Shown here piece after piece: positions 40,439-45,390 of a stretch of 47,947 bases of DNA. This stretch comes from Nitrospirota bacterium (GTDB lineage Bacteria; Nitrospirota; 9FT-COMBO-42-15; HDB-SIOI813). The stretch's first letter is position 1. Every line of letters starts with the position of its first letter. Position numbers and translations under genes: made by a program. The notes beneath the pieces are model-generated. The model ran no database searches and was not told where the DNA came from. It saw nothing but the letters and a program-made list of their open reading frames with translations. Where the stretch lies: the NCBI GenBank assembly GCA_020846775.1, contig JADLDG010000039.1, positions 1 through 47,947 of the forward strand, written 5' to 3'.

Positions 40439-41992
40439 ATGAATCCATATGACAAATTTCTTTATCCTAGTTATGCATATCCCCAGTCGCATCCCGATAA
40501 TCTTGCGACATTAGCCACTTTATTTGGAATGGAACATGCTCCTGCAGACCGCTGCCGTGTTCTTGAACTGGGCTGCGGAAGCGGAGGCAATATAATCCCT
40601 ATGGCCCTTGGATTACCGGAAAGCAGGTTTGTAGGTATAGACCTTGCAGAGGTCCCAATTACTGAAGGACAGGCTATGATTAATACCCTTTGTCTGAAAA
40701 ATATCATTCTCAGAAAAATGGATATTATGGATGTCTCTGCTGAACTGGGACAATTCGATTACATCATTGCCCACGGACTGTTTTCATGGGTTCCGCCTCT
40801 GGTACAGGATAAGATTTTTTCCATTTGTAAAGACCTGCTGCTTCCGAATGGGATAGCGTATATTAGTTATAATACTTACCCCGGTTACCACCTGCAAGGT
40901 ATGGTACGGGAGATAATGCGCTTTCACTCCACCCAAATTGATGAACCTAAGGAGAAGATCAGCCATGCGCTGAATTTCGTTAAATTTTTATCAGAGTCAA
41001 TTCCAGATAACACATACAGGTTAATCCTGAAAGAGGCAGTGGAACAAATGGGAAAAAGACGGGATGAGGGTATATACCACGATGAACTTGCTGAGTTTAA
41101 TCTGCCGGTCTATTTTTACAGTTTTATGGAACGTGCTGAGAATCACGGCTTGCAGTATTTATCCGAAGCTAACTTCTACGACATGCAGGAGTCATTCCCT
41201 TCGGAAGTCACAGATACCCTTAGCACCCTCGCAAAAGACAGCGTGGTACTGAAGGAGCAATACCTCGATTTCCTCAAATGCCGGAGGTTCAGACGCTCTC
41301 TCCTCTGCCGGCAGGGTCTCAATCTTAATCGGACACCTCAGCCGGAACAGATGTATAATTTCTATATAGCATCTTCAGCACAGACTATGTCACAATTATC
41401 TGACATAACATCAGAGACAGAGGAAGAATTCCGAAATGCTCAAGGGGCTTCAATGAAGACAGGACACCCGCTTGCAAAAGCCGCAATAGCAGAGTTAGCC
41501 AATGCCTGGCCAGCGTCACTTGATTTCCATGAATTATTGAACCGCGTAAGAAATCGTTTTCAAGGCAAAAATGTCGCTGCGCTTGAAGGAGATGAAACTT
41601 CTCTATCCAAAATAATATTATGGACATATGCTGCAGGGCTCGTAGAATTACATACTTATCAACCGGCCTTTACGCTGGATATTAGCGAACGTCCTGTTGC
41701 AAGTCCTCTGGCGCGGCTGCAATTGCTGAGCGGCAACCGTATCACTAACCTGCGTCATACGAGCGTGCAAATGGAAGGCCCTCTCGAACAACGGCTGTTG
41801 CTGCTATTGGATGGCACCAGGGATCGTACAGCCATATTGAATGAATTGGCCAATCTGGTTGAGTCCGGAGCAGCATCATTGCGCATGAATGATGTTGAGG
41901 TAAGGGACAGATCAGAAGCAATTGATATCCTCAGTAAAGGACTGGAGACTTCACTCAAACAGATATCACGTCTCGCGTTACTTGTAGAATAA
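40439..41992 (+). CDS. SAM-dependent methyltransferase with regulatory domain (PKMT-like)
   Basis: 517 residues. A class I methyltransferase domain (about 1-170) has motif I VLELGCGSGGN and acidic FVGIDLAE. A methyltransferase regulatory domain (MethyTransf_Reg type, about 210-300) follows, then a C-terminal winged-helix-like region with TRDRTAILNEL. This architecture occurs in protein-lysine methyltransferases of outer-membrane proteins. The start YDKFLYPSYAYPQSHPDNLATLATLFGM is typical of the family. The substrate here is unknown. Convergent with the J-domain gene, 3 bp apart. Confidence 0.85.
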   Translation: MNPYDKFLYPSYAYPQSHPDNLATLATLFGMEHAPADRCRVLELGCGSGGNIIPMALGLPESRFVGIDLAEVPITEGQAMINTLCLKNIILRKMDIMDVSAELGQFDYIIAHGLFSWVPPLVQDKIFSICKDLLLPNGIAYISYNTYPGYHLQGMVREIMRFHSTQIDEPKEKISHALNFVKFLSESIPDNTYRLILKEAVEQMGKRRDEGIYHDELAEFNLPVYFYSFMERAENHGLQYLSEANFYDMQESFPSEVTDTLSTLAKDSVVLKEQYLDFLKCRRFRRSLLCRQGLNLNRTPQPEQMYNFYIASSAQTMSQLSDITSETEEEFRNAQGASMKTGHPLAKAAIAELANAWPASLDFHELLNRVRNRFQGKNVAALEGDETSLSKIILWTYAAGLVELHTYQPAFTLDISERPVASPLARLQLLSGNRITNLRHTSVQMEGPLEQRLLLLLDGTRDRTAILNELANLVESGAASLRMNDVEVRDRSEAIDILSKGLETSLKQISRLALLVE

Positions 41993-41995
41993 TAT

Positions 41996-42685
41996 CTATG
42001 CAGTTGCTGAATAGAAAACTCCACGCGTTTCTTTGAATGTTACTGACACAAACTCAGCGCCAATAATGTACTCTGTCTCTCCATTGTAAAGCGACTTACT
42101 TGCATTGTTAATTTTCACAATGCCTTTTAACCAGGAACCGCTGATCTTAATAAACATGCCATGGCTGAGCTTACTGAAACACTTGAAGCGAATACCGTTC
42201 CTGGACAGATCAATCATCTCAGCAATATTACCCTTCTGAGGCCATGTTGTGTAATAATAAAACTTGTCTGATTTTTTAATTCTTGGCCCGGATCTCTTGC
42301 ATTCTCTTTCAAATTGATCAACTCCAAACTTCTTTAAAGGGCTTTTACATGTTGGACAACATCCCTTTGAGCTATCATCACGTGAGAGCGGCCTCTTACA
42401 GAAACTGCAGTAACTTGTAATTTTTAGCGCTCTGTTTATACCCGAATTGCTGAAAGTATTATTAGTGTATTTTTCTAACATCATTTTATCGTATTCCCGT
42501 CTTTTAGCTTCATCTTTGAGTGATTCATACGCCTCATTTATCACTTGCGCCTTCCATTTTTCTCCACCAAGATCCGGGTGCTGTTTTAATTCTAACATAA
42601 TCGCTTTATAACTTGCCCGAATAACCTCGAATGGAGCATCAGGCTGAACCTGCAGCACACGATAGTAATTGCGTCTGTTTTTCAT
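41996..42685 (-). CDS. J-domain / zinc-ribbon / PilZ fusion protein
   Basis: 229 residues in three parts. An N-terminal J domain (about 5-70) carries the Hsp70-stimulating HPD motif at 36-38. A zinc ribbon follows (C93, C96, C110, C113). The C-terminal PilZ-like domain (about 125-215) has RxxxR at R127/R131 and DxSxxG at 159-164, 27 residues apart, as in cyclic di-GMP-binding PilZ proteins. AGAGAGG lies just before the ATG. The combination suggests c-di-GMP control of DnaK activity, which is inference. Convergent with the methyltransferase gene. Confidence 0.8.
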   Translation of the reverse strand: MKNRRNYYRVLQVQPDAPFEVIRASYKAIMLELKQHPDLGGEKWKAQVINEAYESLKDEAKRREYDKMMLEKYTNNTFSNSGINRALKITSYCSFCKRPLSRDDSSKGCCPTCKSPLKKFGVDQFERECKRSGPRIKKSDKFYYYTTWPQKGNIAEMIDLSRNGIRFKCFSKLSHGMFIKISGSWLKGIVKINNASKSLYNGETEYIIGAEFVSVTFKETRGVFYSATA

Positions 42686-43206: not shown

Positions 43207-45390
43207 ATGAATAAGAAAACCCCGACGCGGAAGGCAATTAAAACGAAAAAAATGCGCTCTCTGCATGATTACGTGTCAGAGGTATCGGAACAGACTGATG
43301 TGAGGGTTGGTATGCCATTGCCTATGGGAACCTATGCACGCGGTGATGGGGTGAACTTTGCTTTCTTCAGCCGGCACGCCAGCCGGGTTCGTCTCGAGCT
43401 GTTTGATCATCCCGAAGATGCCGTGGCAGCGAGGGTGATTGATCTTGACCCCGCGCGCTACCGCACGGGCGACGTCTGGCATGTCTGGATTAAGGGGATC
43501 CGGACTGGCCAGCTGTATGCCTGGCGCGTGGACGGTCCGTATCAACCCTGGAACGGGCATCGTTTCAATTTCAACAAGCTTCTCATAGATCCCTTGGCAA
43601 CGGCGATCTCGCCGCTGCCTGATTGGGATTTTGCCCCGGCACAGGGATATGACCAGTCTTCACCGGAACGAGACGTTGTCTGTTCGAAAACAGATGATGC
43701 GGGAGCCATGCCGAAATGCGTGTTCACCCATGAGCATTTCCACTGGCATGAGGACCATCCGCCCAGGCATCCATGGTCGAACACGGTCATTTATGAAACA
43801 CACGTGCGCGGCTTCACTATCCATCCCAGCTCCGGTGTGCAACATCCAGGCACTTACCGCGGCCTCATGGAAAAGATCCCATATTTAAAAGAACTTGGGG
43901 TTACGGCCGTGGAATTGATGCCAGTGCAGGAATTCAATGAACATCAGGTGACAGCAATCAATCCGCAAACAGGCCAGCCGCTTGTTAATTACTGGGGCTA
44001 CAATCCTGTGGCCTTCCTTGCTCCGAAAGCATCCTACAGCAGCTCCGGAGGCATGGGTCAGCAGAAACTGGAATTCAAGGAAATGGTCCAGGCCTTTCAT
44101 GGGGCAGGAATCGAGGTAATCCTGGACGTGGTCTTCAATCATACGGCCGAGGGCAACGAAGAGGGGCCTACACTCTGTTTCCGGGGGATTGATAACACTA
44201 TCTTCTACATGCTGGCAGACGATAAACGTTCATACAGGAACTACACTGGCACCGGCAACACCATCAATGCCAACCATCCCGTCGTGCGGGACCACATACT
44301 GAGAGCGCTGCGCTACTGGGTGGTGGAAATGCATGTAGATGGATTTCGTTTTGACCTGGCCGCAGTGCTTGGCCGGGGCCGTTCCGGAGACTTGCTGCCC
44401 AATCCCCCGCTTCTTGAGGGGATCGCCGAGGACCCCATCTTAAGGGATGTGAGAATCATCGCCGAGGCGTGGGATGCCGCAGGAGCGTATGAAGTCGGGA
44501 GCTTCTCCGAACGACGCTGGGCGGAGTGGAACGGCCGGTACCGTGATGACGTCCGGCGGTTCTGGCGAGGTGATGATGGTATGCTTGGTCTGTTTGCCAG
44601 CCGTATTTGCGGCAGCGCCGACATCTACACCAGGTCAGGCAAAGGCCCTGAAAGCAGCATCAATTTTATCACATGCCACGACGGCTTCACTTTGAATGAC
44701 CTGGTGAGCTATAACCACAAGCACAATGAAGCAAACGGGGATAACAACCGTGACGGGACAAGCGAGAACTTCAGCGAGAACAACGGCGCTGAAGGCGAGA
44801 CAGCGGATGCCGGGATAGAGGCCTTGCGGAAACGCCAGATAAAGAACTTCCTGCTGACCCTGTTAATCTCTCGAGGGGTTCCGATGCTGCTCGGCGGGGA
44901 CGAATTTCGCCGGACGCAAGGCGGCAATAACAACGCCTACTGTCAGGACAACGAAATGAGCTGGTATGACTGGAACTGCCTGGAGAGGCACAGGGAAGTC
45001 TACCGGTTTACCCGCGGCATGATCGCCTTTCGCCGTTACCACCCGATTCTGAGCACAGAGCAATTCTACATGGACACCGGGATCCAATGGTTTGGCCCGC
45101 AGGGAGGATTGCCACGCTGGACAGATCCGAAAGAAAAACAGGTTGCCTGCCTGATCCATGAAGATGAGCAGGCTGCACTTTGCCTGATGTTCAATGCCGG
45201 CACCACCGCAGTAGATTTTTGTTTGCCTTCTGTACCTCCGGGGGAGCGGTGGTTTCTGGCCGTTGACACATCCCACGAAGCGCCGCAGGATCTGTTTGCA
45301 GCGGGCGAGGAACCGCTCTGGGAAGATCATCAAACGTACCGTATGGGTCCACATTCGAGCGCCATACTTCTGGTTCGAAGAATGGACTGA
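43207..45390 (+). CDS. glgX: Glycogen debranching enzyme GlgX (isoamylase family)
   Basis: 727 residues, GH13 family. An N-terminal carbohydrate-binding domain (about 38-140) is followed by the catalytic barrel. Catalytic motifs are DVVFNHT, DGFRFDLA (nucleophile Asp), IIAEAWD (acid/base Glu) and ITCHDGF (third Asp). It cleaves alpha-1,6 branches of glycogen limit dextrins. A 20-residue basic N-terminal extension precedes the conserved start. GC-rich codons contrast with the upstream genes. No other glycogen genes adjoin it in this window. Confidence 0.95.
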   Translation: MNKKTPTRKAIKTKKMRSLHDYVSEVSEQTDVRVGMPLPMGTYARGDGVNFAFFSRHASRVRLELFDHPEDAVAARVIDLDPARYRTGDVWHVWIKGIRTGQLYAWRVDGPYQPWNGHRFNFNKLLIDPLATAISPLPDWDFAPAQGYDQSSPERDVVCSKTDDAGAMPKCVFTHEHFHWHEDHPPRHPWSNTVIYETHVRGFTIHPSSGVQHPGTYRGLMEKIPYLKELGVTAVELMPVQEFNEHQVTAINPQTGQPLVNYWGYNPVAFLAPKASYSSSGGMGQQKLEFKEMVQAFHGAGIEVILDVVFNHTAEGNEEGPTLCFRGIDNTIFYMLADDKRSYRNYTGTGNTINANHPVVRDHILRALRYWVVEMHVDGFRFDLAAVLGRGRSGDLLPNPPLLEGIAEDPILRDVRIIAEAWDAAGAYEVGSFSERRWAEWNGRYRDDVRRFWRGDDGMLGLFASRICGSADIYTRSGKGPESSINFITCHDGFTLNDLVSYNHKHNEANGDNNRDGTSENFSENNGAEGETADAGIEALRKRQIKNFLLTLLISRGVPMLLGGDEFRRTQGGNNNAYCQDNEMSWYDWNCLERHREVYRFTRGMIAFRRYHPILSTEQFYMDTGIQWFGPQGGLPRWTDPKEKQVACLIHEDEQAALCLMFNAGTTAVDFCLPSVPPGERWFLAVDTSHEAPQDLFAAGEEPLWEDHQTYRMGPHSSAILLVRRMD

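Follow-up and report, generated by a model that had tools for sequence, protein, structure and literature searches.

In Myxococcus xanthus, CsdK1 and CsdK2 are PilZ-DnaK chaperones that enable the PilZ protein CdbS to accumulate in heat stress, and mutation of the c-di-GMP motif of CsdK2 left its interaction with the client unaltered (PMC10313047). One sentence of another study states that a DnaK or DnaJ domain is present in 4 of the 24 PilZ proteins of M. xanthus (PMC8316039). Since CsdK1 and CsdK2 account for two PilZ-DnaK proteins, combinations of DnaJ with PilZ have probably been noticed before. Among the same 24 proteins, deletions produced phenotypes for only plpA, pixA, pixB, and pkn1, and PlpA, for which no c-di-GMP binding was seen in vitro, illustrates that intact motif residues are no guarantee of binding (PMC8316039). 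AtcJ of Shewanella oneidensis, a class C J-domain protein, has a dedicated role; its private C-terminal targeting region, a tail of 21 aa, binds AtcC, and its gene belongs to the atcJABC operon (PMC6715715).

The locus analysed here lies in a stretch of 47,947 nucleotides from a Nitrospirota genome (hereafter the window) and encodes a protein of 229 residues, P0001, composed of a J domain, a zinc ribbon, and a PilZ domain. P0001 resembles CsdK1 and CsdK2, which are linked to c-di-GMP and heat stress, in the physical fusion of PilZ to a member of the Hsp70 machine (PMC10313047). However, the PilZ domain of the CsdK proteins sits on DnaK itself (CsdK2 has about 1,100 aa), whereas in P0001 it would sit on a J co-chaperone that measures 229 aa and includes a zinc ribbon; Pfam detected no Hsp70 domain in P0001. 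The brief description of the M. xanthus proteins with DnaK or DnaJ and PilZ mentions no zinc ribbon (PMC8316039). P0001 shares with AtcJ the class C organisation but AtcJ has neither ribbon nor PilZ and is encoded in an operon (PMC6715715). The PilZ domains of Alg44, MrkH, YcgR, VCA0042, and BcsA have the same six-stranded barrel, RxxxR, and D/NxSxxG, but have polysaccharide synthesis, transcription or flagellar braking as output, and none is a chaperone. Finally, DnaJ (class A) and CbpA (class B) have a J domain with HPD as P0001 does, whereas P0001 lacks the G/F region, the four-repeat CxxCxGxG module, and the CTD, and its interval between helix II and HPD is two residues longer. P0001 also falls outside class A by its length of 229 aa, its two CxxC only, and its scores of at most 39.8 bits against full-length DnaJ-type models whose cut-offs are at least 291. 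We found no description of a J-ribbon-PilZ family in the open-access literature. The family consists of known parts and follows a loosely precedented idea, while being itself apparently undescribed, conserved, and widespread.

The first-pass annotation had read a J domain with HPD, a C4 zinc ribbon, and a PilZ domain into 229 residues, and all three were found, in the following positions:

41996..42685, minus strand: gene encoding P0001, the J-zinc-ribbon-PilZ protein of 229 aa, counted with its stop codon (orthologues L040-L119)
42488..42670, minus strand: J domain, residues 6-66 (Pfam PF00226, 1.4e-11; AlphaFold2 pLDDT about 97; Foldseek)
42572..42580, minus strand: HPD tripeptide, residues 36-38 (kept in 71/72 members)
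42347..42409, minus strand: predicted C4 zinc ribbon, C93-C96 and C110-C113 (two CxxC; cysteine conservation; weak Pfam matches)
42035..42295, minus strand: predicted PilZ domain, RxxxR and six-stranded barrel, residues 131-217 (AlphaFold2; Foldseek; Pfam in members)
42281..42295, minus strand: c-di-GMP motif 1, RSGPR, with R131 and R135 (arginine in 72/72 at both; aligned with RxxxR of Alg44)
42194..42211, minus strand: c-di-GMP motif 2, DLSRNG, residues 159-164 (conservation; aligned with DLSAGG of Alg44)
41999..42034, minus strand: family-specific C-terminal tail GxFxSxxA, residues 218-229 (column conservation; low pLDDT)

The ORF of 229 codons is a real gene, given its ATG start at 42685 preceded by a purine-rich AGAGAGG, its stop at 41996, and its full-length homologues. 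It is probably transcribed alone because a class I methyltransferase gene (40439-41992) is convergent to it and a glgX-like gene (43207-45390) is divergent, with a gap of 521 bp between the latter and the J-PilZ gene. The methyltransferase, which has PKMT C-terminal and MethyTransf_Reg domains, is without ortholog in the nearest relatives, and it may form part of one variable block with the J-PilZ gene. The glgX-like product contains LLGGDEF, a motif easily mistaken for a diguanylate cyclase signature; we rejected that assignment and consider it an isoamylase-type motif. No c-di-GMP riboswitch was found upstream of the J-PilZ gene, the sole Rfam match in the window being a tRNA.

When the whole protein was searched against 61 genomes, only J-domain matches of ordinary DnaJ type were obtained outside the window copy. 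With the C-terminal 142 residues as query, we recovered a single ortholog at 1e-29, plus two copies within the phylum that were more distant. The resulting three-member alignment was used to scan a species-representative genome collection, which gave 122 encoded relatives. The 80 relatives that were kept were nearly all full length with identical domain order, bearing in mind that loci were chosen by J-domain patterns and ranked by overall match, a procedure biased towards complete proteins. The arginines and DxSxxG were not among the selection criteria. The identity range of the 72 aligned members was 29-59%. The relatives came from Pseudomonadota, Acidobacteriota, Nitrospirota, Planctomycetota, Thermodesulfobacteriota, Gemmatimonadota, Myxococcota, Deferribacterota, and Calditrichota, as well as candidate division KSB1, the records being mostly metagenome bins in which single taxon labels are unreliable. 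A survey of the architecture across genomes had been proposed with the first-pass annotation; once run, it revealed that the J-ribbon-PilZ order is kept, both motif sets together, in at least nine phyla. Because of this recurrence, the combination is, as judged from the encoded proteins, far beyond chance.

In the phylogenetic tree, the window protein grouped with sequences from Caldithrix and KSB1 (99% SH-aLRT support; 59% and 54% identity). When 296 genomes of the same phylum were searched with a profile, the gene was recovered in four, its own genome included, while the nine further genomes belonging to its genus and family gave no match. Horizontal transfer or repeated loss would account for such a scattered occurrence. 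There is a residual chance that the contig was mis-binned, the contamination estimate of the genome being 4%. We detected no relatives in viral contigs at the sensitivity used, and plasmids gave J-domain matches only.

The Pfam DnaJ model matched all 72 aligned members. AlphaFold2, run on the 72-row alignment, predicted helices at residues 7-11, 19-32, 43-57, and 59-78, corresponding to helices I-IV of the J fold, with HPD placed between helices II and III as in J-domain proteins. With the whole model as Foldseek query, the N-terminus matched many J domains (e.g., 2och, TMt 0.82). The residues of DnaJ that contact DnaK are known from the DnaJ-DnaK complex. Position 27, which corresponds to DnaJ K26, is basic (R or K) in 64/72 members and Y26 is present in 68/72; the equivalent of DnaJ R27 is T or A in the family. 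In 75 of the 80 family members, 9 residues separate the helix II tyrosine position from HPD, vs 7 in the nine scorable DnaJ-type proteins of the phylum. The J domain of the family is thus probably active, yet belongs to a distinct subfamily. One could argue from the longer interval, from the one member devoid of HPD, and from the second, HPD-less J domain of some Nitrosomonadaceae members that this is a repurposed J-like fold and no DnaK co-chaperone, the protein being simply another c-di-GMP effector. Frequent loss of HPD would be expected in that case, but HPD is retained in 71/72 members along with the basic helix II position in 64/72, and we regard such repurposing as very improbable. J activity of P0001 on DnaK, as read from these residues, is by comparison highly probable.

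Several relatives displayed variations in their J region. The single HPD-less member of the 72 (L108:7986-8690) has SAT in place of HPD and its c-di-GMP motifs are intact. In three Nitrosomonadaceae proteins (L112:53-1084, L116:8001-9011, and L117:2172-3185), tandem J domains precede the ribbon and PilZ, the second J domain being the one without HPD. We also observed J-only proteins of 107-109 aa (L114:4651-4977, L115:39-368, and L118:4971-5294) in Chromatiaceae and another gammaproteobacterium. They belong to this J subfamily (VQPDAP; spacing of 9 residues), have a common tail WRPFxxxV(I), and lack both ribbon and PilZ downstream; they possibly form a sister family in which the targeting tail differs.

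The two CxxC knuckles are those of a C4 zinc ribbon, for which metal binding is predicted. C93, C96, C110, and C113 are cysteine in 65, 65, 66, and 63 of the 72 rows, respectively, and the Pfam double-zinc-ribbon models gave weak matches in 12-13 members. We considered the possibility that this element corresponds to the cysteine-rich domain of DnaJ and rejected it because there are only two CxxC. The zinc cysteines are absent from L056, L062, L072, L074, L102, L110, and L113, mainly from Nitrospirota. The J and PilZ motifs stay in ribbon-less members, and the ribbon is, on this comparative evidence, dispensable.

In the window copy, Pfam detected DnaJ at residues 6-66 and nothing significant C-terminal to it, although 69/72 aligned members matched Pfam PilZ (best 2.3e-9). 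The AlphaFold2 model has six strands in this region (136-145, 153-160, 164-169, 178-183, 186-200, and 203-217), and R131-R135 lie directly ahead of strand 1; its mean pLDDT was 86.9, about 97 for the J domain and about 96 for the barrel. In the whole-model Foldseek search the barrel matched MrkH and BcsA. A barrel-only model (residues 117-229) had MrkH, BcsA, Alg44, and VCA0042 as top matches, with YcgR also listed, all five being c-di-GMP PilZ proteins; the probability was 1.00 and the query-normalised TM about 0.5-0.6, with weak E-values (about 1e-3) for this small domain. The PilZ call, made originally from motifs and spacing only, was therefore upheld by AlphaFold2, Foldseek, and Pfam in the members, and the C-terminal fold is, according to the model, a PilZ barrel.

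The first-pass annotation had also claimed both c-di-GMP motifs, with R127 and R131 as the arginines. DLSRNG at 159-164 stood as described, and RxxxR was correct in kind but not in register. The motif occurs twice, overlapping (R127-R131 and R131-R135), and R131 and R135 are found in 72/72 members vs 7/72 for R127, so that RSGPR at 131-135 is the true RxxxR. The related concern that the arginines might fall outside the binding loop was settled in the same way: an invariant RxxxR does precede strand 1, formed by R131/R135 instead of R127/R131. In the second motif, D/N159 and S161 are each kept in 71/72 members and G164 in 72/72. A profile of the C-terminal region aligned with Alg44 through both motifs (RQFAR ... 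DLSAGG), with a weak E-value of 0.06. The tail following the barrel is conserved at G222 (69/72), F224 (65/72), S226 (53/72), and A229 (42/72) and is a candidate for contact with a client or with the ligand-bound barrel.

These data bear on whether the PilZ domain binds its canonical ligand. It could be a protein-interaction barrel that does not bind c-di-GMP and keeps the motif for structural reasons, as the precedent of PlpA (PMC8316039) and the missing Pfam match in the window copy would allow. However, in a domain whose identity otherwise falls below 30%, conservation peaks at R131, R135, S161, D/N159, and G164; the mean column identity of the 72-member alignment is only 37%, and the motif residues match those of Alg44, whose matched PDB entries are c-di-GMP complexes. 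A non-binding barrel is therefore quite improbable, and motif conservation makes it very likely that the P0001 PilZ binds c-di-GMP.

We did not recover any conserved gene neighbourhood around the family. After clustering of 623 neighbouring ORFs, no gene family was common to more than 6 loci (ABC ATPases), the clustering being strict (60% coverage) so that distant relationships may escape. The lack of a recurring neighbour argues against an operon-encoded client. A motif search of the neighbours gave GGDEF-like matches in only a few loci. In the window itself, the first-pass annotation had pointed to two HD-GYP regulators as a sign of active c-di-GMP signalling in the neighbourhood. Two side-by-side response-regulator proteins with Pfam HD_5 do exist (108-1397 and 1387-2436), beside flagellar genes. 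Both keep HHExxDGxGYP, with HDIGK replaced by EDIG in the first and HDVGN in the second, and are possibly inactive or altered HD-GYP enzymes by these motifs. As they lie about 40 kb from the J-PilZ gene and their HD motifs are altered, we rejected them as local evidence of c-di-GMP signalling. A better argument comes from the host genome as a whole, which has 19 matches to GGDEF, 12 to PilZ outside P0001, two full-length Hsp70 genes, and two DnaJ-like proteins, indicating that signal and chaperone are both present in the host.

With the same architecture kept across at least nine phyla, it is sound to infer that c-di-GMP and Hsp70 co-chaperone activity are linked. We consider it fairly likely that P0001 is a class C J-domain co-chaperone recruiting DnaK under c-di-GMP control and, to the same degree, that its targeting region consists of the C4 zinc ribbon and a c-di-GMP-binding PilZ, the DnaJ G/F region and CTD being absent. 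The J domain would dock DnaK-ATP via helix II and HPD and stimulate hydrolysis, and PilZ would bind c-di-GMP through R131/R135 and D159/S161. As known for other PilZ proteins, ligand binding would pull the arginines of the linker onto the barrel and change the orientation of ribbon and J domain with respect to a client or partner that PilZ or the C-terminal tail holds. DnaK would thereby be recruited to the client according to the c-di-GMP level. Points against this reading are the PilZ domain missed by Pfam in the window copy, the atypical J domain, the loss of HPD in L108, the absence of a conserved neighbour hinting at a client, the low pTM of the model, the unchanged client interaction of the CsdK2 motif mutant (PMC10313047), and the precedent of PlpA (PMC8316039).

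The coupling of ligand binding to J activity is the step for which the balance is even. The pTM of the model was 0.57, meaning that the mutual arrangement of the J domain and the PilZ barrel is not predicted, and the linker between them is variable in sequence and of low AlphaFold2 confidence. The latter observation would suit a protein in which both domains are active without being allosterically coupled, PilZ serving as a handle for targeting, either constitutive or dependent on c-di-GMP, that does no more than localise DnaK to a complex, and J activity being insensitive to the ligand. Class C J proteins can indeed target purely by a private region, as AtcJ does with AtcC through its tail (PMC6715715), and the interaction of CsdK2 with its client is independent of the PilZ motif (PMC10313047). 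Nevertheless, the invariance of RxxxR (72/72) implies that ligand binding matters, and a c-di-GMP-dependent change is thus expected; we consider the uncoupled alternative unlikely. Control of DnaK recruitment by c-di-GMP stays our preferred reading. Its extension to the whole family, i.e., a widespread and dedicated group of c-di-GMP-gated Hsp70 co-chaperones in which the messenger directly sets the place or the strength of DnaK recruitment, is more tentative, with chances slightly below even.

Myxococcus provides the known connection of PilZ with the Hsp70 machine, and the J-ribbon-PilZ family represents a different link, present in at least nine phyla. Motility, biofilm formation, transcription, and development are the known outputs of c-di-GMP. 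Through a co-chaperone that is conserved and whose c-di-GMP site is intact, control of DnaK targeting would join these as a general output. The conservation of the family suggests a direct link between c-di-GMP and protein quality control, and, if this is true, proteostasis would be an output of c-di-GMP signalling in many phyla.
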